From contig JAHQIY010000005.1 of NCBI GenBank assembly GCA_019054805.1, forward strand, positions 4,199,501-4,263,500: DNA of 64,000 bases, read 5' to 3'. Positions within the stretch are counted from its first letter, which is position 1; the number at the start of each line of letters is the position of its first letter. The notes below the pieces were generated by a model. That model was not told the DNA's origin and searched no databases. It worked only from the letters and a program-made list of their open reading frames with translations. The position numbers and the translations under genes were made by a program. Positions 22,511 through 51,190 of the stretch are shown in pieces. This stretch comes from Brachionus manjavacas. Taxonomy: Eukaryota; Rotifera; Eurotatoria; Ploima; Brachionidae.

Positions 22511-25500
22511 ATGCAGCTAAAACGAATCAAAACTCTTTTGCCCAGCATGGTAAAAAATATTAGCTACTTTGAATTTTGTTTTAACTTGAATTTAAAAGGG
22601 TGGCGAAGCCCAAGTTCAGGCTATGACTTGGTCCGCGAACAACCAAAAATTCGCTGTGTGTAGTGCCGATAGAGTTGTTCATTTATTTGATGAATACGGA
22701 GAAAAAAGGGATAAATTCTCGACCAAACCATGCGATTCTAAAGTATTCCTAAAATACTAAAAACCATTAAATTTAACTTAAAAATATTGTTTAAATTAAG
22801 TTTGGAAAAAATAGCTATTTAGTAAACGCACTTGCATTTTCTCCTGATGGTTCTATGCTTGCCGTAGCCCAGACAGATAACATCGTTTTTGTGTACAAAA
22901 TTGGTTACGATTGGTAAACTTAAAATAAAATATTTAAGCATTTTGATAAATGTTCTCATAGGGGAGATAAAAAATCTATAGTAGCTAAACTTATACAAAA
23001 TAGCGCCATCACATGCATGCAATGGTTGCCCGATAACCAAATCATTTTCGCCCTGGCCGATGGAAAAGTAGACTTTTGTGGTAACAAAAATTTCAAAGCC
23101 TCTAAATTATTTTTTAAAGATAAGAGCTGGAAACGTAAAAAAAAACAAATCCTCAAACGTCTATACAGCAGAGTACTACACAGTCTCTTTGACCGCAAAG
23201 TAAGATTATTGCCTTAAAATAAGAAGACATTATTGTATTTTCCATTAGTTCAAGTGGTAAAGCAATACTTTCCGGTCACGCAGATGGTTCAATAGTTAGA
23301 TACATTTTTGCAGATGAACATACGGGTGAAACCCAGGGTCTGGTTTGCCGACATTCAACTCCACCTTATGCACTAGCCTGGACACCTTTTGGAATATTAG
23401 CTGGCGGATGCGACAAGCGCATAGTTGTTTACACCAAGGATGGTAGAATGCTTCAACAATTTGATTACAGCAAAGACCCGAGTGAAAAAGAATTTTCTTG
23501 TGCATCTGCCAATCCGACTGGTCAGATGGTCGTTTTTGGCAGCTATAACCGGCTCAGAATTTTTACTTGGTCAGCTCGAAAAGGTCTTTTTGAAGAAAAT
23601 GATCCAAAAGAGTTCATTAACTATTACACAATTACATCTATTGCGTGGAAAAAAGACGGGTCTCGGCTTGCAATCGGAAATCTTACAGGATGTGTTGACC
23701 TTTTTGACTCAAGTCTTAAAAAACAATTGTATAAAGGAAAATTTGAAATGACGTATGTTGGTGTATCGCAGGTTATTATTCGAAATATAACCACGAACCA
23801 AAAGGTAGATTTAAAATCCCACTATGGCTACGAGGTATTCGAAGTCAAAGTCCTAGGCAGAGATAGATATGTGATAGCGCATACAAGTGAGACACTAATG
23901 ATCGGCGATCTGAATACTGGTAATTTGAGTGAAATTCCGTGGAGGGCTCAAGCCGGAAATGAGGAAAAATTTTATTTCGATAACGAAAGTGTGTGCATGA
24001 TTTTCTCTGCTGGTGAATTGACTCTAGTTGAGTATGGTGCCAATGATGTTTTGTGCCAGGTCAGAACAGAGTTCATGAATCCGCACTTAATCAGTGTTCG
24101 TTTGAACGAACGAAAACAAAAAGATGTTCAAAACAATAAAAAAATGGCGTTTTTAATAGATCTAAAAACTATATCAATAAGTAGGATCAGTTTTTTATTT
24201 TTTTGTTTTAAAAAAATAAAATTATTTTTTTATAGTGGATCTTGTTCCCGGAATAACAATCGCCCAAATTCAGCATGATTTAAAAATAGATTGGCTAGAA
24301 TTAAATGAAACAGCAAAGTACTTGCTTTTTAGGGACAAAAAAATGAAGCTACACTTGTACAATGTAGAGACCCGGGAGAGAAATTGTATCCTAAATTTTT
24401 GCACTTATGTCCAATGGGTGCCCGACTCAGATGTTGTAGTAGCCCAAAATAGAAACAATTTGTGCATTTGGTATAACATTGAGGCCTATGAAAAAATGAC
24501 TATGGTTCCAATTAAGGGAGATATTCAAGAGATAAAAAAAGACAATAATAAAACAAATGCTGTAATAAACGAAGGAGTCAATATTGTTAACTATGAATTG
24601 GACTCTGGTTTAATAGAGTTTGGCACGGCCATGGAAGATGGTGATCTAGTCAGGTATTGTATATTTTAAAAGAAAAAAGCTTAATATAAGTTTTTGCTTT
24701 TAAAGAGCTGTTGAGTATTTGGAATCTGTTTTGATCACAGATGAAACTGAAACAATGTGGAAAATGCTGGCCAGATTTTCGCTGGAAAGCAAACAGTATT
24801 TTATTGCGGAAAGATGTTATGCTGCTCTTGGAGATGTTGCTAAAGCAAGATTTTTGCGTGAAACTAACCGAATTGCTGCAGAAAACGAAAAAGAGGTGTT
24901 TTTTATTATTTTTTTAAATTTGAATAAAAATTAAATTTGAATATTTTCAGGGAAATTTTGGAAATCAGTATAAAGTGCGGGCCCGTATAGCAGAGTTAGA
25001 CAAAAATTTCAAAGCAGCTGAGAGCATATTGTTAGAAAATCAAGCAATTGACGAAGCAATTCAAATGTATCAAAGCATTTACAAGTGGGAGGAAGCGATT
25101 GAAATTGCCGAGGCCAAAAATCATCCAAATGCAGAAAAATTAAAGCGAAATTATACACAATGGTTGCACGATACCGAGCAGCACGAAGTGGCTGCGCTTC
25201 TAAAAGAAAAAGAATATGACTATTTGGGCGCTATAAACCTGTATTTGAGAGCCAACATTCCAATTAGAGCTGCCAAAATTTTAATGAACAATCGAGAATT
25301 AATTCATGACCAAGATCTCATTACTAAAATAGCCACTTCTCTAATTAAATCAGAGTTGTTTGAAAATGTAAATTTAAAGATTTTTTAAATGAACTTTTTT
25401 AAATATAAAATTGTGCTATAGGCTGGAGAATTATTTGAGAGAATACGGGATGACCATAGAGCACTTGAGTGCTATAAAGCCGGAAAAAGCTTTAGAAAAG

Positions 25501-28500
25501 CGGTTGATTTAGCAAGACAATGTGCTCCACAAGAAGTGGTCAAATTAGAAGTCGAATGGGGCGATCATTTAGCATCTCAAAAATTGTACGATGCAGCTAT
25601 AAATCATTATATTGAAGCTGGGTAAATATTTTTTAAATAGATTTATCAACTTTTTCAAATAATTTTCAAAAAATAAACAAAAATGTTGACTTCAGAATAT
25701 TAGAATCTAAAATTTTGAGAAATTTGTTATGTTTTGAAATCTTTAATTATTGTTTGCTATAACAAATCTTAATTTAAAAAAATGAATCAATTTAAATATT
25801 TAATTTATAAAATAGTATTCTACTTTTGATTTTAGTATTTTAATTAAAAAATTTTAAAATCAAAATACTTCTGAGAAAATTGTTTAATATGATTGATATG
25901 ACCTCATTTTTTTCTTTACTTTTTAAAGTTTTTGTTTTAAATTTTTAAAATATTAACTTAAAAAAATAATAAAAAAAATTTGGTTTTACCTGTTATTTAA
26001 TATCATTGTAAGAGCCAAATGTTTTAAATTTAGGCTAAACACGATAGTTTTGCTACCATTCGAACTTTTTGGGAAATAAAAATTTTCAAACCAACGCTAC
26101 GAATTTAGGATTAAATATAACAAGGTGATACCCGTTGCTCCTCTACCGAAGTAATAAAAAAAAGAAGAGAAATCAGTTTTGATTATTAATTTTATTTTAA
26201 TATTAATTTATGAATTTGGTCAGGTTCTGATGCCGCTTCATTTTTCAATCTTTTTAAAACCATAATTACTTCATTTAAGCAAATTGAATCATTAAAATTA
26301 TACTGATTATAATTTTTAAAGAATTAAGAGTTAGAATTAGTTATTTCGATATTTTTCCAAGTATCATTTAAATCAGAATTATGACTAAATATTGAAGATA
26401 AGAGTTCTCCGAATTAGCATTTTCCCTTTTCTTCATTTGTTCTTGATTCCTTACCTTTTGAAATCAGATTTGGAATTAAATTTGATCCTTTTTTCGTTCT
26501 AAATTTATTTATTTTTTTAACAAAAAGGTCTACTTGTCAGTGCGTTTTTTCCCATCCTCTGAATGAAATCAAACCAATTTTGATTCCAGATTTCTTTTAG
26601 AGAGGCCTTTAACTCAAATGTAAGGTGATTAAATTTTTACTTGAGTTTTTGGCAGCGAGTTTTCTATAAGTTTTTTTTAACTTTCCTACGTTCTTTTATC
26701 AGATTAACGAGTAAATTATTACATTTATTGGCAAGCATGGTTTCAGATCAGAGACAATTATTTTTTAGCAAATTCGGTAACAAAATCAAACTTAACATCC
26801 GATATCCGATTTTTATCCCAAAAAATAAAAATTTTAATTCTAACTTTTTGTGTTAATTTTTTTTCGCTAATTGTTACCGTATTTCCCCGAATATAAGCAT
26901 CTCTTTTGATCTTTTCGAGAGCCCGTATAGCCGAATGGTTTGCGTGTTAGTCATGCAAGCAGAGGATCGAGGGTTCAAAACCGCTGAGAGTGAAAAAATC
27001 TTCAAAATATCTCTGCCATACGGGACGAATGTTTAAACCTCTTTCATCATAAAACCAGTTTCGACTGGGTAATAGTTGCGGTGTAGATGAACAACTCAGA
27101 TCGGAGCCGTTGCTCAAAAAAGGTACTTGAAAAGGAGATGAGCGCCTCCCCATCATCCACTAGGATAGAATAGGGACAATTATTTTGATCTTTTCGTTTC
27201 TCAAGGATCCGCTTATATTCGGAAAAATACTGTTCATATTTTTGTATGTAATATAATTTATTAAAAAGTAGTAAATAATAATAAAATTGCCCTTTTCTAT
27301 CCTAGTGGATAACGGGGAGGCACTCATCTCCCTTTCATGTACCTTTTTTCGAGCAACGGCTCCGATCTGACACAGAGGTTGCTGCATCGAGTAGATCATC
27401 AACACCGCAATAAAAAATTAGTAAAAATGAGCTTTTTTTAATTTGATAAAATTCATTATTGAAGATTTTTTTAATTGCAAAAAATAAAATTTTTATTTTT
27501 TTCAACTTTATTCTAACTTTTTGTGACAAACTGTATTAACAACATTTCTTGTAAGAAAATTTGAATGAATAAATTTCAATGAATTCGGCTATTTTTTTTT
27601 CGCTTCAATTTTTTTATGTAAAAATTTTATTTTTAAGTTGTAAAAAGCTACTTTATATTATGTTATTTATAAAAACGGATTAAAACAATTATAAAAAAAA
27701 TTTCAAATTTAAGTTAGTTATCGTAAGTATATGTATGGAAAGTTTACTTTTTTTCACGCTTTTGGATTTTAAATATCATATAATGAATGGATAATCAACA
27801 ATCCTACCGAAAATTGACAACTTTATATTTAAAAAGTATATTTCAATTAAAGTGGATATATAATATAGTTATTAAAAAATCAGTAATTATTGTCTTGTTC
27901 CTTTGTTTTTATAAAACTTATTTAATATTAAAAAGAGAAGTCAAAGAAGTTTTTATGCTTTTTTTGTTTTTTTTGTACATGTCTGTTCCTTTGAATCTCA
28001 ATTTTTTTTATTAGGTAACTGATAAAATTAAAATTTTGAATTTTCTAAATTGTGATGATTTGAATCTTTAAATTTTAAAATTCATTAAAAGTTAAATTTA
28101 AAATATTTTATTTTAACAAACTAAAATAAAGTATAAATTTGCTAAATTTTTGCAAAGTAAGTAACAAAATTATTTTATAAAGGAAGTTAACTTGTGGCAA
28201 ACAAATTAAACGAATACAACCGAAAAAAATCCAATTTTTTTTCTAAGATTAGTTTAACATCAAAAAAAATTATCAAATAAAAAAAAATTATCAAATAAAA
28301 TTATATCAATTATTAGATAAGACAAAAACCCATTTCCTAAATAATTTAAGATTTAAGGTAAATCCGCAAGCAACCTAGTCAAAAATAATATCAAGTCAAG
28401 TTTTTATTTTTGAAGACTTCGAGAGAATTTGAAAATTTGAATGTTAATAGGGTATTATGATTTGAAATAATTTTAAAGAATTGTCTAAGGAAAATCTCTT

Positions 28501-31500
28501 TAATTATTTTCTTCCTCAATATTTCATCATTAAATCATTACTTTTCATTACTTTTGGATTATTTGGGAACCATAAAATAATTCTAATTGAATATATTTTT
28601 AAAGTGAGTCATTAAAGGCAGTCGAGGCCGCTATAAATTCAAGACAATGGAAAAAAGCTTTGGACATATTGAGCACTCAAGATTCTGAATCAGTCTCAGT
28701 TTATTACAAAAAAATCGCAGATAACTTTGCCAATTCACAAGATTATGACATTGCTGAAAAACTTTACATTAAAGCCAATTATCCGAAGGAGTGTATTGAG
28801 ATGTTTAATCGAGCTGGTAAATGGGATCGAGCTTTTAAGATAGCTACTTCATATTTGACGAAGGAAGAAGTGACAAGTTTGTACTCTGAGCAAGCTAAGA
28901 TTCTTGAAAAACAAGGAAGATACAAAGAAGCTGAAAAGCTCTATACCACCATTAATGATCCACAACAAGCCATTCAAATGTATAAAATATTGAAAAATTA
29001 TGATAGTATGATTCGATTGATTAAAGAATATTATCCGGACATGGTGTCCGATACTTATGTTCACTTGGCCAAAGAACTTGAATCGACCAACAATTTCAAA
29101 CAGGCTGAGAACTATTACATTCAAGGTAATGATTGGAAATCGGCAGTGAATATGTACAGAAAAGCAGATAATTGGGAAGATGCTTATAAAGTGGCCAAAA
29201 ATCATGGCGGACCAGTGGCTGGCAAACAAGTTGCTTATTTATGGGCTAAAACTTTAGGTGGCGACTCAGCAGTCAAATTATTGAACAAATTAGGCTTGTT
29301 GGATCAAGCAATTGATTTTGCTCTTGAAAATTGTGCTTTTGAGTTTGCATTCGATTTGGCAAAAACTTCGTCAAAGGAAAAAATGCCAGAAATTCATGCT
29401 AGATATGCCATGTTCCTAGAGGATGAAGGCCGTTTTGCCGAAGCTGAACAAGAATTTATCCGAGCTAAAAAGCCCAAAGAAGCTGTGCTCATGTACGTTC
29501 ATAATCGCGATTGGGACAATGCCCAACGTGTTGCCGAACAATACGACCCATCTCTGACCTCGGATGTTTTGATCGGACAAGCTAAACTTGCATTCGATGA
29601 AAAGAACTATCAAAAAGCCGAATCTTTTTTGCTAAGAGCTCAGCGTCCTGAATTGGCTGTTAAACTTTACAAAGATAATGGCATGTGGCAAGATGCATTC
29701 AGAGTTTGTAAAGAATATTTACCTAACAGAGTTGATCAGCTCAGAGAAGAATTTGAAAGTTCAGGCTCATCTCAGAATCAATCAATGTATTTTTTTTCAA
29801 ATAATTAAATAATCAATTTTATTTAGAATTATTTTAGTGGAGTCGACGGAACTGGTTTACTTGAGCAGGCGACCAGGTGGGAAGCGTCTGGAGAATATGC
29901 CAAGTCGGTCGATGCCTATCTCAAAATACTGCCCTCGAACAACATCGACAAAGACACGGCTTTAAAATGCTGGATGAAGGCATTTGATGTATCACAAAAA
30001 TTTCTGTCTGAAGAAAGAACACAGTATGTGGCTCAAACTATTGGACCTAGGCTTATACAACAAAATAGATCTAACCAGGCTGCAGAATTGTATCTCAAAG
30101 CCGACTTGGTAAGAGAGTGCATCGATGCTTTTATTATTGCTGAAGACTGGAAAAAGGCCAAGAAAGTAGCTGAACAATTAGATCCAAGTTTAATTCCGTA
30201 TGTAGAAGAAAACTATCTTAAAAGTAAAAAAAGCCAGGGAGACTACTCTGACTTGGGTGCTCAGGCTCTCGAGCTATATGCCAGTGACGGCAAATGGGAA
30301 GAATGTTTAAAACTTGCCGAACAACAGGTAAATTTCTAACTTAATGAAGATAACATTTTTCTAATTTTAAATTTCTTACCAAGAATCAAGATGTTTTGAA
30401 CAAATATGTGGCTAGATACGCCGCAATTTTAATTAAAAAAGGTCGATCTGATCTAGCTTTGGATTTGTATATTAAATATGGAGCCCCAGCAATTAGCCAA
30501 GTAAAGCTCAGAAAAATATATTTTTACAAAAAAAGATAAAACCCTCAAGTTTTAGACCTTAAGTAAAATTTCAGTCAAAAATAATTGTTTTATTGACTGA
30601 AAAATTGAAATTTACCAATTTTTATGTCAATTTATTATCAAAGTAAATTATTCTTAATTAACGAAAAAATGGTAAAACATTAAAAGCCTAAAAGAAAGGA
30701 TTTTTTTTATTTTTTTATCATTGATTTTACGTTAATTACTATAATTAATGGTAATTTTGATCAGAAAAATTAAAATAAAAAGTCGAGAAAAGATAGAATT
30801 TTTATACAAAAAAATGAAGCTAATTAATTTTATAAAATTAATACCTTAACTATTCATTTTAAGCCTTTAAACGTAAAGCATGTAGCAGTTTTTTTGAGAG
30901 ATTTCATTCCTCAAATGTTAAGCCATAATAGACTCGATAAGATTTTTTGTCTTCTTTAAAAATTAAAAGTTAATTTAAATAAAAACTCAGCAAAAAATAG
31001 TCGAATCTTTTTTCCCCTAATTTAACATCAAAAAGTATTTTCAGTATATTTTAAAATATAAGAATTAATTAATTTTTTTTTATTCATAATAACAAAGAAT
31101 TGTAGAAAAAAAGATAAAAACGTGCCCATAAAAATTCTTTGTTTCTAAAAAGAAGAAGTTTTAAAGACTTCTGGGATCTTAATGGCTAAAAGAAATTTTG
31201 GCTCTGACATTTTTTCCTAAGATTTAGAAATTTTTGGGCTTTTCGAAATTAATTTATTTATTTTTTTAATATTAATAACACAAAATTATAAGAATAAGAT
31301 TAAATTAACCCAGAAAAATTATTTTTTTTTCATTTAATGTTATAAAAAAGTTTTTTAGACTTCTCGGATATTAATAATTAAAAAAAATTGGATCTTCTAG
31401 TGTTATACAATTTAAAACTATTCTTTATCTTTTAGCTATATATAACTTAAATAAGTAAATTCCAATGATTATGTTAGCACTCTTTTTATTTCTAAAAAAA

Positions 31501-32703
31501 ATAAATATATAGTATGTTTGCTCAAAAATGTATATTCAGAAATATGAATGGATATTTCATTGTCAATAGATGTGACATTCAATGAAGAATAAAAAGCATA
31601 GTACATTTTTGATAACTCGAAAACTTCTTTAGTTACAATAGTTAAGATATATTTAATATGAAAATCTATTTATCTTTTTTACTTTTCAATAATTTCTTTT
31701 AATGATAATTTTTTTCAAAAGTATTTTGACAATTTTAAACAAATTGCTTATGACATTTTCAAACTGGATAGTCTTAATTCAAAACAATACTATAGCGAAT
31801 GGTCAAAATTAAGAGAAATTTTGTTTAGTTTGAATCAAAATTTGAAAAAATCTTCAGAAAAAGATGGACCTGAGCACAAATATTTTCAAAAATTATTCCT
31901 TATCACTCATTACAACACCATGAGAAGTAGCTGTATAGGCAATGATCAATTGGATTTGATAGCAACAAAGTTGTCTATTTCCCTATTACGTCACACAGAC
32001 CTAATTCCAGCAGATAAAGCGTTCTACGAAGCCGGCATAATGTGCCAAAAAGTCAAGTGGGATAATATGGCTTTTGTTTTCCTGAACAGATACATTGATC
32101 TTGCTGACGCCATAGAAGATAAAAATAATGAGATAATGGACAATCCGTATTTGGCCGATACGGACATACCCTTCGAAATAAATCTGCCTGAAAGCAAATT
32201 TTTGTCGGTTAGTATAAATTTTTAATTATTCTTGAAAATTGACTACTTTAATTTCGTAAAAAGGATGATAAACATGAAGAAATTAAAACTTGGGTGATCA
32301 AGGTTAGTATGGATCAAAAGATTGAGCCTTCATTGAATACAGATGAACGAGGCATCTATGAAGCTTGTATAATATCAGCAGACTCGGACACTGTATATTT
32401 GCCATGTGTAATAACAGGTAAATTTGAATTATTTCTAAAATTTTCTAGATTTCTAACAATTTCTAACTAAAGGATATCCAGTTTTGAACAAAATAGAATT
32501 CAAAAATAATTTGTCTGCTAATGTAGATGACTGGAATACTTATTTAATGAATACAAAGGTATTTTATTTTTTTTTTAAAAAGAAATATTTAAATTCCTAT
32601 TTTATTATTATAGATGTCGAAAACCGATGAAATGTTGGACTGTGTCAAGTTTTTGGGTAAATGGTGTGATACTAATCCAAATACTAGTTATAATTTTAAC
32701 TAG
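22511..32703 (+). CDS. IFT172: Intraflagellar transport protein IFT172
   Basis: Seventeen predicted exons: 22511-22549, 22599-22742, 22801-22913, 22962-23067, 23120-23199, 23249-24180, 24236-24653, 24706-24895, 24951-25367, 25422-25621, 28605-29786, 29838-30327, 30384-30500, 31722-32207, 32264-32417, 32473-32558, 32614-32703. Together they encode 1747 aa, almost exactly the human length (1749). All phases join. The first 550 or so residues are two WD40 propellers ([37 protein letters not shown]). The remainder is TPR-like helical repeats (RAYNE-type A/E-rich pairs; [20 protein letters not shown] is nearly invariant in the family). The C-terminus has DKAFYEAG and [19 protein letters not shown]. 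It is a peripheral IFT-B subunit needed for tip turnaround and cilium assembly. Most introns are about 50 bases, but intron 10 is 2983 and intron 13 is 1221. Intron 10 holds nested mobile elements. Confidence 0.97.
26876..27233. mobile_element. Small inverted-repeat element (MITE) interrupted by a SINE
   Basis: Termini 26876-26898 and 27211-27233 are inverted repeats matching at 20 of 23 positions, inner ends AATATAAGC / GCTTATATT. Without the inserted SINE the element would be only about 80 bases, with almost no interior, typical of a minimal MITE. It lies in IFT172 intron 10. No clear target duplication was recognised. Confidence 0.65.
26904..27196 (+). mobile_element. tRNA-derived SINE with target duplication
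   Basis: The body 26918-27182 begins with a tRNA-like head: an A-box-like TAGCCGAATGG at about 26927 and a B-box-like GGGTTCAAAACC at about 26971. A tRNA-unrelated body and an AT-rich end follow. It is flanked by an exact 14-base direct repeat, TTTTGATCTTTTCG (26904-26917 and 27183-27196), the target-site duplication made by LINE machinery. The acceptor stem does not pair, so this is not a functional tRNA gene. Confidence 0.75.
27290..27411 (-). mobile_element. Second SINE copy, inverted and 5'-truncated
   Basis: The reverse complement matches the 3' half of the SINE at 26918-27182 (blocks TCAGATCGGAGCCGTTGCTC and GCCTCCCC...ATCCACTAGGATAGAA). It has a roughly 25-base insertion relative to the first copy and lacks the tRNA-like head. 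Confidence 0.75.
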
Positions 32704-32930
32704 AAAATTGAGTCGGAAATTAAAACCAATTAATACATTTATTTTTTTTATTTTTTTTCAAAAATATTTAATAAATACTTGATTTATAATGTTTTAAATT
32801 TTGCTAATGTAATTTAATCAGTAAACAACTTTTCCTAAAAAAGATTAATAAACTATAAAAATAAACTATAAAAGCTTAAATTGAACCACATTAATTGTTT
32901 ATTCGAACAACTGTAATTTAATTTGATAAA

Positions 32931-35403
32931 ATGATACCAAAAGGAATTCTTAAAAAACCAACCGAAGAATTCAAAGAACGTAAGATTTTATTTTATTCAC
33001 ATATTTTTAAAGACTGAAACCAAAAAATTAAATTTCAAAAAAGACATCATTATTTCATTAAAAGCTGATAAATGTTTTGATATAAATAAAAACGCCCTTT
33101 TTCGAATTATGATTCAATAATAGAAATCACTTGTTTCACTTCTTTTTTTATCAACCAAAATCAATAAGGGCTCAAAAGATCAAATTCCGAGGTCCCATCG
33201 GATTTAGCCAGTGAAATATTAATAATTTTGATTTATAGTCAGATATTTTAGAATTGAAGTAATAATTTTTAGATCATCCTTCTGATTCCCTGTAAACAAT
33301 ACTATTAATTATTAATTAAAATTGACAAACATTGAGGGGATCAATTTTAATTAATAATTAAAACCATAATCTCTATGATAGAATTAATTGGATAAAATAA
33401 CCAAAATTTGTTTATATTTATTTTTTACTAAAGACAAATAAAAATAAATAATTAAAAAAAGTAACCAAAAATAAGACTTGTCTTAAATTGATTGTCACAT
33501 TGCTCGTGTAATATGAGTATTTGTAATCAGTTTGGTCATAATTAGTTTCAAGCAATATTAAAATACTTTAAAAGAAATGAGCCTTTCACATTTATTAAAT
33601 ATTTAAGACGCGATAAAAACAAATTTTTTTTTGAAAGATCCAAGAAAATGTGTCTTGTTTTTTTTCTTTATATATCAATTTTTGGGTGATTTTTTTATTT
33701 TTTAAAATATAGATTAACAGCATAAAAATTAATGTTCATTCAAAATTTTTGCTTTTAAATATCGAATTTTAAGGAATTGTTAATTTTGGATCAAAGAAAA
33801 AAATGAAAATACTGTAATACTTTGCACAATTGCAAGGCTTTTGTGGAAACTTAATTTTGGTCATGAAAAGAATTTAGATATTTCAAAAAGATAAAAATTC
33901 TAAAAAAATCAACATTTTGACGACAAATTCAAAATTTAGCTAAAGAAAATATGCATTAAATTATTAATTTTAGTTTATTTAATTTTTTTGTTTTTATTTT
34001 ACAATTCTTCGGTTAGGATTATTTAAAGCTAAATAAATAAAAAAAAATTTACTCAAATTTGTCAAAAAAAAAATATATTTAGTTAAAATATTGGAATTCG
34101 AAGATACCTTTTTAAATAAATAAACAAAATCAATTTTTCATAAGTTAATTTTGTTATTTTTATTAAAGTAAAAAACTTATCAAAAAATTTAAACAGGCAT
34201 ATCTGACAATTTAAAAAATAGTTTGGCTTTAAATTTAATTTCTATTTGAAAATAAAATTAGCTAGATTTTTTCTAATAATATAGCAAGTTTATGATTCAA
34301 AATTTTCAAATCAAAATTTTTTGTTTTAACTTTAAAAAAAGGTATTTTTCATCAATTTTTTAAATATTAAATTTGTTAACTTTATTAAGCATGATTTGTT
34401 TAATCTTTAATTAGGAAGAAAATTATATGAATATTTATCTGAAGATAAATAAAATCTAAATCAATATTTTGAAATTTTGCAATACAAAATTAAACTTCGT
34501 TCGCTGTAATATATTTTGATTAATATTAAAATATCATTTAAAGCCATTATTTGGATGCTTTAATGTGGATTTTTAATTTGTTTCAACTTTTTGCAAGCTA
34601 CAAACTTTTAAAATTAATATTTTATTAAAATCGATTGGGAAAAAAAAAATTTAATTAAATTAAGATAATTAACATTTTTTGTTTAATTAAAAAGTATTTA
34701 AAAAAAAGTTTATTTCATCATTTTTATAAAGATTTTAGTTTATTAAGCTTTGATCATTTGATCATGATCATGAACTTCAAGTTGCCTATAATGAATAATA
34801 TTCCCACTTCGCATTTTTATTCTAATTATATAAATTAAGATATTTATTTTAAAAAGAGGACAAAAAGCAACAGCAAATAAAAAAATTTTTTGACCAAAAT
34901 TTAGAGAGTAAAATCAGAAATTCTAAACAGGATTCGATCAGACTGTGTGATGTTTTGACTACGAATTTTGTTGGATTTTACTTCGACGCCAACTGGTGTA
35001 CTCATAGTCAAGGCTTTTTAAAAAAACTAAAAGAAGTGTACACTTTATCAAAGCAAAAACAATTAAATTTTGAGATAGTTCATATTTCAGCTGATTATGA
35101 TAAAAAAACCTGCTTGGAAAATTATGAGCAAAATCATCCAGATTGGTTTTTATGGCCCAACGAAGATGAAATTTCCCAGTATTGTATTAGTCTAAAATAA
35201 TACTAATTAAAAACATTTTTTTAAGTGAATTAATTAATTTTCTGGATGTGAATTACGTTCCATGTTTAGTTGTTGTTTCATCAAGTTTCAAATTAATTAC
35301 TAACATGGGCCGAAAAGAAATCAGCGAAAAAGGACTAGAAGCCGTGGTTAATTGGAATAAATCTAATATTCAAGCAAGACGCATGAAAATAATCAAATTT
35401 TAA
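32931..35403 (+). CDS. Nucleoredoxin-like thioredoxin-fold protein, altered active site
   Basis: Predicted exons: 32931-32979, 34857-35178, 35226-35403; 182 aa. The first exon is joined across a 1877-base intron only by phase and splice signals, so the N-terminus is less certain. The core has VGFYFDANWCTHSQGF, in the place of the tryparedoxin/nucleoredoxin V-x-L-Y-F-x-A-x-W-C-P-P-C motif. FEIVHISADYD follows, then the late NYVPCLVV, equivalent to the cis-Pro strand V-x-x-x-P-T-L-V. The first active-site Cys is kept but the resolving Cys is Ser (C-T-H-S). This should prevent ordinary disulfide cycling, though a monothiol or structural role is possible. The family is cytosolic/nuclear; no signal peptide is seen. 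Converges on the neuropeptide gene, with 97 bases between stop codons. Confidence 0.8.
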
Positions 35404-35500
35404 TAATTTATTAAATATCAAACAAAAATGGTCAGTTTTTTAAATCTTGAACAGTTTAAAAAAATTTAAATAAATTATTTAAAACAAAATACAACATTAA

Positions 35501-35887
35501 TTATTTTCCTAGAGATTCAAAGCCTCTTTTGATGATTGGAAAAAGCTTTTCAAAATTGCTTCTCACTTCATCATTGTTTCTTTTTCCCAGAGCCTCGAAG
35601 CCTCGCTTTTCCATTAATGAATGAGTGGAGGTTTTAAGCAAGTCTTTTATAACTCTTTTAAGGATTAAATTTTCTTCAATCAATTCTTCAACCAAAGCGT
35701 CATTTTGACTTCGTTTGCCGAGTGCTTCGAATTCTCTCTTATCCAACTCTTGACTGTCATATTTAATATCAGATGCTAAATATGGGTTATTTTTCGTAAG
35801 ACTTTTGGTTGCATCTACAAAAGCAACTGATGAGAAAATATGGGATGTGATGAAAACCATCAGCAATCCAAGTATCATTTTTTCCAT
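35501..35887 (-). CDS. Neuropeptide precursor, three XFE(A/S)L-amide peptides
   Basis: A single exon encodes 128 aa. Residues 1-22 are a typical signal peptide (charged MEKM then a hydrophobic run). Three short peptides follow, each preceded by Lys-Arg and ending in the amidation/cleavage signature Gly-Lys(-Arg): EFEALGKR (52-59), GFEALGKR (96-103) and GFESLGK at the very C-terminus (122-128). Expected mature products are EFEAL-amide, GFEAL-amide and GFESL-amide. Acidic or charged spacers of about 35 and 18 residues lie between them, one with an extra LKR site. The repetition of the peptide with divergent spacers is the hallmark of a secreted neuropeptide prohormone. I do not recognise the family. 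A TATA-like box lies about 60 bases upstream. Confidence 0.85.
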   Translation of the reverse strand: MEKMILGLLMVFITSHIFSSVAFVDATKSLTKNNPYLASDIKYDSQELDKREFEALGKRSQNDALVEELIEENLILKRVIKDLLKTSTHSLMEKRGFEALGKRNNDEVRSNFEKLFPIIKRGFESLGK

Positions 35888-35946
35888 AATGGCTTTAACT
35901 GATCTAAGTTTTTTTTATTTTCAAGAAAAATACCTCAAAAATTCTT

Positions 35947-35954
35947 TATTTATA
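35947..35954 (-). promoter_or_regulatory. TATA-like box of the neuropeptide gene
   Basis: The minus strand reads CTATAAATA 60-67 bases upstream of the precursor's ATG, a fitting place for a core promoter of a tissue-specific gene. In AT-rich DNA such matches are common, so confidence is limited. Confidence 0.35.
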
Positions 35955-36403
35955 GACAAAAATTTAATTTAAAATTTGTGCAAAAACAAACTCAAGATTT
36001 TTTAATGATTTTGAATATTTAACGTCAAGTTTTGTGACGCATTTATATCCTTATTCTCCATTCATTTATTAATTTTTTTTCTGAATATACGAGTCTGATA
36101 TCAGTAACTTCCAAAATTTCTCTTATAAATTTTCAATAAAACCTTTTTAATATTTAAAATAAATCGGACTCTTAAAAATTGGATTTGGGTTTTATTTTTT
36201 CTAGAATTATGTAACAAGTGCATAAATGATAAATTAAGTGTTTTTCAAGGAAATAAAAATGAATTTTATTTAAATTTTTAAATAAATGTTTTATGAGATG
36301 GAAAAACAATTAAAAGCTGTTTTAAAATCGCTTCATTTTCTGTAATTGGGCGAACTATTATCAAGAGTCTTAAAAAGGAAGTTTAATTTTTTTACTCAAT
36401 TGA

Positions 36404-37438
<1,035 letters not shown>

Positions 37439-44875: not shown

Positions 44876-46833
44876 TTCTAAAAAGGTGTGCTTCTGATTT
44901 TCAACAAATGGAATCTTATTAAATTTGAGAGATTTTTTTTATATTATTAAAAAATATGCTTTTACTTAACTAGATTTGAAAATTATTTGTCACTTAAAAA
45001 ACTTAACTTTTTTCCTTGTTTGTATCAAATTGCACAATCAGTTTCTAAACAACTAAAAAGCAATACCGATGAAATTTCTCATATCAATAATTATTTAAAT
45101 TTGTATATTTTTTTAATCTAATAAATTTAGACCAAATCCAAAGTTTGACAAAACGATATTACTAACATAAACTGAGAAAAAAATCTACTTTAGGGAAATA
45201 ATGTGAATAAAGTTGGTTAACTTTCTAAATCTTTAAAGGGTTATTAAAAATATTAAACTTAATTTTTGAAAATTTCTTTGAAGAATATAACACTTTTTTA
45301 AGGTTATTATTTAAGGGAATATTTACTCTGAAAATTGACCGAACAAAAATATATCATCAAATTATTATCACAAAAGACAAAGACATAAATTGAATTAAAA
45401 TAAATGATTTCCTTTTCGTAATTGGTATTTTTAGGCAGAAGATATGAAAATCCAAATAACTGCTCTGAACTTTTTAAAATTTTTAACTGGCTGTGTGTTA
45501 AGGTCAAGATTTGAGTCTATAAAAAATCCAAGGTATTCTTTCTGATTTGTTTTGTTAAGTTCGGATCCATTTAGTTGGAAAACCGACTTAAATAATTGAA
45601 TATCAAAGCTAACAACTTTTGTTTTATTAGTGTTAAATTTAATTCTCCATTTATTCCCATAAGAACCACAAATACCTAAAAGCATTTGTAGATGGGAGTC
45701 AACTGAGCTTATTAATATTATATCATCTGCATAGACAATGGTATAAACATTAAGATCTTTATAAAGAGCTCCAAGCTCCTTGTTTAGACATTCTATTTTA
45801 AAATCATCAATAAAGATGTTAAAAAGAAATGAAGATAAAATAGCTCCTTGTTTTACACCAGCTTCAATTTTAAAGACATCTTTAGTTAAATTATTCTAAG
45901 AAGTACCCAGCAGGAAATATCCAGTCTCTTTAATAATATGAAGAATAAGCCATCACGCTATTTAGCGTCATTAAAAAACAATAAATTTACAAGATATATG
46001 CAATACTCAGAAAAAAAAATCAAATATGTGAAAGACTTGATTTGTTATTTTTAGAAAAAACTATTGCGCTGTCTTGAATTTAACTAAATAAAATTCCAAA
46101 AATTGGAACTTATTTCCCCTTTTTGAATTTTCTTTTCACCAAATATGAAAAAAATTTAAGTAAATAAAAAATAAAATAATATCAGAATTTTCATTAAAGT
46201 TTTTATTTTTTGATTGATAATTCAACAAAAATAAAATTAATTGAAAAGAATATGTTTTTAAATATTTTATTAAAAATTAAACATTGAATTGTTTAGTTTC
46301 ACTTTTTTCCAGCTTTCGTTTTTCTAAAAAAAAATTAGTTAAATTTGAATTTGATTTAAAAAAAAAGAACAAAAAAGCTGATTTTTATTGAATACATTTC
46401 AAACTGTCCATCAACGACTCATTAATTAAGAAATAAATACTAAAAAGATTCTTTAAAAAAAGAAGATATCTAAGTAAAAAATCAAGAATAAAAACACAAA
46501 TATTTTGATTTAATCAAATGAGTCATTAACTGGTCAAATTAATAAAAGTTAGCTAAATTTTTTAAAATTATGCAATTGATAATATTCATAGATATTTATA
46601 GATTGAAGATTTAATATCAAAGATTAATTTTCCCCAACACATGATTCATGCATTGAATTGTAATAAAAATAATCAAAACATTTATTCTAATTTTCAAGAT
46701 CATTAAATAATCATTCATTTTATTAAACTTTAGGAACTAGAATTAAATTTTCAGCACTCCTAGAACTTACTTTATCTTTTTAAAATTTAATTTTATTAAA
46801 TCGTGATAACATTACTTAAAAATAAAATATTTC
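44876..46833. other. Intergenic, with a LINE fragment
   Basis: Between TTC36 and the MORN1 3' end I see only the reverse-transcriptase fragment at 45431-45897 and AT-rich sequence. Confidence 0.5.
45431..45897 (-). mobile_element. LINE reverse transcriptase fragment with intact YADD
   Basis: One continuous minus-strand frame encodes EAGVKQGAILSSFLFNIFID, then YTIVYADDIILIS with the catalytic Tyr-Ala-Asp-Asp. KWRIKFNTNKTKVVSF and QKEYLGFFIDSNL follow. This is RT domains 4 to 7 of a non-LTR element, uninterrupted for about 155 codons, and so the youngest-looking RT piece in the window. Both ends are missing and a stop lies just upstream. It differs in sequence from the copies at 15-17 kb. Confidence 0.85.
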
Positions 46834-49800: not shown

Positions 49801-51114
49801 TTGAGCTTTTGAAAAAAAAAATTCAAAATATTTTTGAATGATTTTTTTATTCATTCATAAAAAAAATTTAATATCCCTTTTGTGTCAGTTAGCGGGATAT
49901 CCATGAAAAAAAAATTAATTTCGAATACTCAATTTAAAAACACAACCCAAGACTAAATAAAAAGTTGCTAAATTTTTTATTGTAAATATGACAAGTAAAC
50001 GGAATAAATACTATAAATTTTAAAATGAGGATAATTTTGTTAATTAAGAAAACGGGTTGTTTTCTCTTTCTTAAATTTCATGACTATTTTATTGAATAAA
50101 AAATTACAATTATCCATAACAAGAATATTAGAAAGATTGCTTAAAATAAAAAACTGAATAATTTTCTCATTTTTCAAAACGGGATATTTATTTTTACTTA
50201 ACTTATGACTCTGAAACAGCTTAGTAAAACTCTGAAAGTTCTTCAAAATACAAGTGGCGTTGAATTTTAAGCATTTTACTGTAAATTAAAATCATACCAT
50301 TTCTTAGATTATTAGAAATTTCGCCTTTGTAGTTGTGCTTAAAATTGTCATTTTTAAAAGTGTTTATAGACTTTTTTAAGCTGGTAGTATTCAACGAATT
50401 CGAATAAGAATTAAAATCTATGTAGGTGCTATCTTGTTTAGGGACGAAAGAAAAATACCGATCAACTAAAAAGTCGAAATTTATTTTCAATTTGTTATTT
50501 GTTTCTTCCGAATTGCTGACCACTGGTACACTGCCAAGAATAGAATTTTCGAATGGCTGAGAAATGTATTGAATATTGTTGAATTCTTCTAAAAAATTTT
50601 GAACAACATTCAAAATTTTGAAAGAATCATCTGAACTTGATTGATTAGACTCTAAATTGGTGACATTTATCATGTTACAGAGTAAACAGGTCAAATCATC
50701 GCTGAGGATAAAATTTTCAAAGTTTTTTTTCAGCTCGTTATGAATTGATTGAATATAAGCAAATGTATCACTATTTGATTCATCATATAAATATATTATC
50801 GAGGCGATAAAAAATTGGGAGATTTTTTTGGTTGTATAACTATTTTCGATTAAGGAATAAATGACGCTCTTATCAGAACCATCAATTAGTTGAACATATT
50901 TGGTTGCATATTTTGAGTTTTCAAGCTCGACTGAATAGTCAGATATGAAGCAATTTATGTTTATTCGGTTATTTTCCACTAGTGACTCGAAACTTTTGGT
51001 CATCAAAGTAAAATTATTCAATTCATTCGAAATAGATTCGATAAATTTATTTTTAAGAAGCTTAGAACTGCTTATCAAGAGAATATTGACGCCGTCCGAA
51101 TTTTCTATTGTCAT
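46834..51114 (-). CDS. MORN1: MORN1-like protein with N-terminal GTPase-like extension
   Basis: Predicted exons (minus): 51114-50298, 48420-48349, 48298-47687, 47638-47551, 47497-47379, 47332-47039, 46988-46834; 718 aa. Residues 273-460 or so are MORN repeats (GFGIYVYDNKFFRYEGEW, SFYEGEFRDGEMTGKG, YEGDFDNNMKHGYGE, YTGDWIRDKRQGHG). They match vertebrate MORN1, and so does the C-terminal block VLIAEDLSNPPIFGKRL. The first exon adds about 272 residues absent from vertebrate MORN1, and ends YKGEISNNLRNG, in phase with the next MORN unit. This part reads like a decayed small GTPase: NILLISSSKLLKNKFIE where the P-loop would be, YVQLIDGS, and ASIIYLYDESNSDTFAYI. The gap is a 1877-base intron. A perfect RFX X-box stands 77 bases before the first exon's ATG, supporting this start and a ciliary role. 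Confidence 0.82.
49311..49779. mobile_element. Inverted-repeat element in MORN1 intron 1
   Basis: The left end has AAAGTCCAAGTCCGGACTTT. The right end, reversed, has TTAGTCCAAGTATGGACT. These outline a roughly 470-base element with imperfect inverted termini. The right half (49530-49770) is much richer in G+C than the surrounding intron and holds several short palindromic words (AGCGG...CCGCCCGCT, CCGGACAC). No transposase frame is present, so it would be non-autonomous. Confidence 0.45.
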
Positions 51115-51190
51115 TTCTAAATGGAAATAATAAAAGTATTAATTTTTCAATTTTATTTCAAGCATCTTATTTTTTAAATTCAAAATTTTA

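Follow-up and report, generated by a model that had tools for sequence, protein, structure and literature searches.

A candidate precursor gene for multicopy amidated FE[A/S]L peptides in the rotifer Brachionus manjavacas

Kinins end in F-x-x-W-Gly-amide, with the core F-x-[S/A/P]-W-G; allatostatin-A peptides end in F-G-L-amide and FMRFamide-like peptides in R-F-amide; and pedal peptide/orcokinin peptides, which are about 11-15 residues long and have a free C-terminus, start like [x]-F-[D/E]-[S/A]-[L/I]. The protostome TRH-type peptides include EFLGamide and FSEFLGamide of Platynereis, according to excerpts of two papers (PMC3890597, PMC5818035). Neuropeptides of rotifers and Gnathifera are thinly surveyed: passages of a 2021 spiralian study name a gnathiferan neuropeptide survey as the next frontier, refer to one study in which very few precursors were found in three Rotaria species, and mention lineage-specific peptide families known in other groups (PMC8557429), while an excerpt of a further paper lists an FCAP-like precursor among those of Rotaria (PMC6425005). 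For Brachionus itself, an extract of PMC10730642 describes an APGW/AKH precursor of Brachionus plicatilis with three APGWamide copies and AKH; among the matches listed for rotifer neuropeptides and genomes, this was the sole paper whose title names a neuropeptide precursor of Brachionus. The locus described here adds a candidate precursor in a genetically tractable rotifer, as CRISPR knockout has been published for Brachionus manjavacas (PMC10395877, in the portion consulted), and the function of the precursor gene is therefore directly testable.

Reading of the open frames in the window, that is, the whole 64,000-nucleotide stretch of B. manjavacas DNA that was analyzed, gave an uninterrupted ORF of 128 codons on the minus strand, from 35887 to 35501, where a sequence-only reading had placed an ORF without naming its strand. 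The three X-F-E-(A/S)-L-G-K(R) units claimed in that reading, each directly after Lys-Arg, were all found in this one frame: Lys-Arg precedes each of the three copies, Gly-Lys trails each of them, and a full Gly-Lys-Arg trails two (Table 1). In total, the precursor contains six Lys-Arg pairs and no cysteines. Its N-terminus, MEKMILGLLMVFITSHIFSSVAFVDA, reaches a 9-residue hydropathy maximum of 3.21 at residues 5-13, and putative signal-peptidase positions lie after A22 (S-V-A22) or A26 (V-D-A26), with the signal peptide itself judged from hydropathy alone. The start context has A at -3 and G at +4. The earlier proposal of a single small exon agrees with the uninterrupted frame, which is its whole basis, and the TATA-like box that had been claimed is present as a TATAAA. 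As G+C is ∼24% in 32001-36000 and such hexamers are common in DNA of this composition, both the TATAAA at -67 and an AATAAA at +88 are weak evidence, faintly compatible with a short transcription unit.

Table 1. Features of the candidate precursor and its immediate surroundings, in window coordinates.
Feature	Position	Strand	Basis or remark
Candidate neuropeptide precursor ORF, 128 aa	35501..35887	-	ATG 35887-35885; stop TAA 35503-35501; sole genome locus
Putative signal peptide, residues 1-22	35822..35887	-	Hydropathy; residues at -3/-1 are small; could instead end at residue 26 (35810)
Copy 1, KR-EFEAL-GKR, residues 50-59	35711..35740	-	Predicted EFEAL-amide
Copy 2, KR-GFEAL-GKR, residues 94-103	35579..35608	-	Predicted GFEAL-amide
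Copy 3, KR-GFESL-GK then stop, residues 120-128	35504..35530	-	Predicted GFESL-amide
Additional Lys-Arg, residues 77-78, within the first spacer	35654..35659	-	Sequence
Spacer peptide VIKDLLKTSTHSLME, residues 79-93	35609..35653	-	Inferred from dibasic sites; would be non-amidated
NFEKL, residues 111-115, a chance resemblance or perhaps a fourth copy that has decayed and lacks processing sites	35543..35557	-	Sequence
TATAAA, 67 nt 5' of the ATG	35949..35954	-	Weak evidence in AT-rich DNA
AATAAA 88 nt 3' of the stop, possibly signaling polyadenylation	35407..35412	-	Weak evidence in AT-rich DNA

On the plus strand, a thioredoxin-like gene (34955-35200; Pfam Thioredoxin_8, E 3.2e-11) faces the 3' end of the precursor; the stretch 35248-35403 (+), read by eye, is likely a further exon of this gene, possibly nucleoredoxin-like, and with the gene taken at its full extent (34955-35403), about 100 bases separate it from the 3' end of the precursor. 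Upstream of the precursor and on its strand lies a spermine/spermidine synthase (36567-37205, E 4.1e-69). Elsewhere in the window, 23223-32225 (+) holds a run of same-strand open frames, and because 28603-29808 matches the IF140/IFT172 TPR family (E 2.7e-21), this run is likely to be one large intraflagellar transport gene of multiple exons. A reverse-transcriptase fragment at 45431-45895 (-) (Pfam RVT_1, E 1.8e-16) is probably the remnant of a retroelement, and a 305-aa open frame at 50221-51138 (-) matched no Pfam family at E up to 0.001.

The frequency of such an arrangement was evaluated with a detector that called an ATG-initiated ORF positive when it held at least two dibasic-peptide-Gly-basic units. 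Among the window ORFs of at least 60 aa, 2 of 44 were positive, namely the precursor and an ORF with a single lysine-run site that was counted four times. None of 156 ORFs was positive in 200 kb from other parts of the genome (20 stretches of 10 kb), and 5 Mb of third-order Markov sequence gave 2 positives among 1315 ORFs, each because one Gly site within a run of lysines was counted repeatedly. By itself, a hydrophobic N-terminus (peak of at least 2.2) is not rare: 16 of the 156 background ORFs, about a tenth, have one, as do 4 of the 44 window ORFs.

The genome searched comprised 114,169,980 bases in 61 contigs. The vasa and mlh3 guide-RNA targets published for B. manjavacas (PMC10395877) each had one match in it, free of mismatches where one was permitted, and the four genotyping primers from that paper all lie nearby, exact and oriented as expected. 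From these six short oligos at two loci, we take the animal to be Brachionus manjavacas or a very near relative, in line with the pointer to rotifers in the sequence-only reading. Among the best candidates scored, both the DNA search of these 114 Mb and the protein search, at E up to 10, returned one match each, the precursor locus. The pattern KRGFE[A/S]LGK, in which Ser was coded as TCN only and outside which copy 1 (EFEAL) falls, had two genome matches, copies 2 and 3, against 0 for the reversed control. Pfam gave four matches to the precursor, none of them above cut-off (the best, Securin, at E 0.014 and 15.9 bits vs 22), and the PDB sequences gave one weak match only (E 0.78). In genome_contigs, a pattern was fitted by 106 stretches, of which 1 passed; this was a 19-residue match in a Candidatus Eisenbacteria contig that we took as chance. 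In viral_contigs, 22 stretches fitted a pattern and 0 passed. Among the papers listed for the motif strings (mostly open-access text without supplements, judged by title and listing), none was a neuropeptide paper on such a peptide, which agrees with the earlier description of these peptides as unrecognized.

Pairwise comparison of the three copies gave 7, 8, and 6 nucleotide differences over 27 positions and 1, 2, and 1 amino-acid differences over 9. For all three pairs together (9 codons), pS was 0.86 vs a pN of 0.08, and an equal number of random changes gave so few amino-acid changes with P values of 0.0003, 0.003, and 0.006 for the individual pairs, which are not independent of one another. 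This test spans three copies of 9 codons each, and the copies may not share descent by duplication. As most synonymous sites but few amino-acid sites vary among the copies, selection seems to act on the peptide, and the repeated peptide together with its processing residues is constrained relative to synonymous sites. The spacers, of which one pair was compared, showed no clear similarity (score 4, shuffle P 0.07).

The genome contains candidates for the processing machinery. The copper monooxygenase family PF01082 had 12 matches in the genome and none in any of 14 control genomes. ORFs were read at L003 and at seven other loci, the latter covering 8 matches, with L004, L005, and L006 left out, and one piece, from L010, was taken into the PDB search. 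The L010 exon (G000:C16) had peptidylglycine alpha-amidating monooxygenase as its best PDB match (E 7.7e-18, vs 0.099 for dopamine beta-hydroxylase), and PHM is therefore present in the genome. L003, the strongest PF01082 match, was dropped as an amidating enzyme, since on inspection alone its ORF resembles a dopamine beta-hydroxylase-type protein. The proprotein-convertase P-domain had 7 genome matches, a count that does not separate neuroendocrine convertases from furin, and was found in 1 of the 14 control genomes (an archaeon). The APGWamide pattern, which served as the positive control, had two genome matches against 0 for its reversed control; at L041 (G000:C4:6378735-6378781), an APGWamide exon reads LDKR-APGWGKR-APGWGKR, with two tandem copies, and the KR...GKR grammar of this exon shows that this genome uses such precursors.

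We consider the locus very probably a small multicopy precursor gene for amidated neuropeptides or peptide hormones of a Brachionus rotifer. The same conclusion in the sequence-only reading is well supported by (i) the anatomy of the frame, (ii) its occurrence at a sole locus, (iii) the excess of synonymous over amino-acid differences, and (iv) the amidating monooxygenase in the genome. We infer expression, processing, amidation, release, a receptor, and a neural role for the precursor along the following lines. The precursor would enter the secretory pathway through its putative signal peptide, a prohormone convertase would cleave after the Lys-Arg pairs, a carboxypeptidase would trim the basic residues from the cut peptides, and PHM/PAL would turn the exposed Gly into a C-terminal amide. 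The predicted products are EFEAL-amide (computed [M+H]+ 607.309), possibly as its pyroglutamate form (589.298), GFEAL-amide (535.288), and GFESL-amide (551.282). Neurons or gland cells would presumably release these peptides, which would act through a G-protein-coupled receptor, with the shared F-E-[A/S]-L-amide end as the presumed receptor-binding part.

Among other readings of the locus, an ORF open by chance or a dead gene is extremely improbable: the surrounding DNA is AT-rich, which speaks for it, but the frame is intact and carries a signal-like segment and the start context given above, its three in-frame repeats differ mainly synonymously, and no comparable ORF occurred in the 200 kb of other genome sequence or in the 5-Mb simulation. 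The repeats might instead be structural parts of a secreted, non-signaling protein whose Lys-Arg and Gly-Lys sites go unused, and the first spacer, read by eye, does have a long acidic, helix-like stretch, SQNDALVEELIEENLIL. We regard this as very unlikely, given that all three copies sit in a dibasic and glycine context (copy 3 as Gly-Lys-stop), that the constraint spans the peptide plus its processing residues, and that the protein has no Pfam domain above cut-off.

The peptides might belong to a known bilaterian family, for example TRH/EFLGamide, kinin, or pedal peptide/orcokinin, from which the rotifer form has strongly diverged; this reading overlaps with the preferred one of an amidated-peptide precursor and differs from it in ancestry alone, and we judge such a descent unlikely, while giving it appreciable weight. 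Copy 1 starts with EF and would end in L-amide, as in EFLGamide relatives, but EF occurs in only one of the three copies, and the E-F-L-Gly-amide C-terminus is absent from the precursor, where the copies end F-E-A/S-L-G-K. Similarly, F-E-[A/S]-L-G aligns with the kinin core if Trp changed to Leu, but the kinin F-x-x-W-Gly-amide end is absent and the whole precursor contains no Trp; a defining end, EFLG-amide or WG-amide, is found in none of the three copies. The start of the peptides is orcokinin-like, but orcokinin-like peptides are longer and non-amidated, and the precursor units have 5 residues and then Gly-Lys. In the genome, 0 matches were found both for KR-[E/D/Q/H]FLGGKR, a pattern that misses longer forms (e.g., KR-FSEFLGG) and intron-split codons, and for the kinin pattern F[Y/H/N/D][S/P/T/A]WGGK, which misses intron-split codons. 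A family member with a changed sequence could hide behind these zeros, but because of what the patterns miss, the zeros say little, and EFLG or kinin families could still lie elsewhere in the genome.

The precursor likewise holds neither FGL, as in the allatostatin-A end, nor RFG, as in an RF-amide end. An RFamide pattern had 4 genome matches vs 8 for its reversed control, and therefore did not exceed chance; a clear precursor was seen in none of the 4 frames. One of the loci (L043, G000:C1:2429251-2429270) has FFRFGKR in a 59-aa open frame, which is a possible RFamide exon. The predicted FE[A/S]L-amide peptides thus lack the defining ends of EFLGamide/TRH, kinins, allatostatin-A, and RFamides.

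For the amidated-peptide precursor as preferred here, the sequence evidence makes it most likely that it is real and functional; its peptides are unassigned to a family. That the FE[A/S]L-amide family arose in rotifers (or gnathiferans), with a receptor of its own, and has no counterpart known elsewhere is a more tentative proposal, to which we give a little less than an even chance; if true, FE[A/S]L-amide would represent a peptide-receptor system of rotifers or gnathiferans. As lineage-specific families have been reported elsewhere, the finding of the precursor is useful rather than startling.

Compared with TRH/EFLGamide, the precursor shares the format of short amidated peptides, an E-F start in copy 1, and a Leu near the C-terminus, whereas its predicted peptides end in F-E-A/S-Leu-amide rather than F-L-Gly-amide, with Gly as the first residue in two of three copies. 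The likeness to kinins lies in a Phe, then x-[A/S], and then a hydrophobic residue ahead of Gly; in contrast to kinins, however, the precursor is devoid of Trp and has a single Gly after Leu in each unit, and Leu, not Gly, would therefore be amidated. Pedal peptide/orcokinin peptides are similar in a start resembling F-[D/E]-[S/A]-[L/I], while the units here are only five residues long and carry an amidation signal, in place of a longer peptide whose C-terminus is free. With the APGWamide precursors, the locus has the processing grammar LDKR-peptide-GKR in common, whereas the peptide is unrelated, and the two APGWamide copies in the exon are adjacent while the FE[A/S]L copies are split by long spacers. 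Multicopy amidated precursors are a well-known kind, to which the FE[A/S]L-amide precursor most likely belongs.
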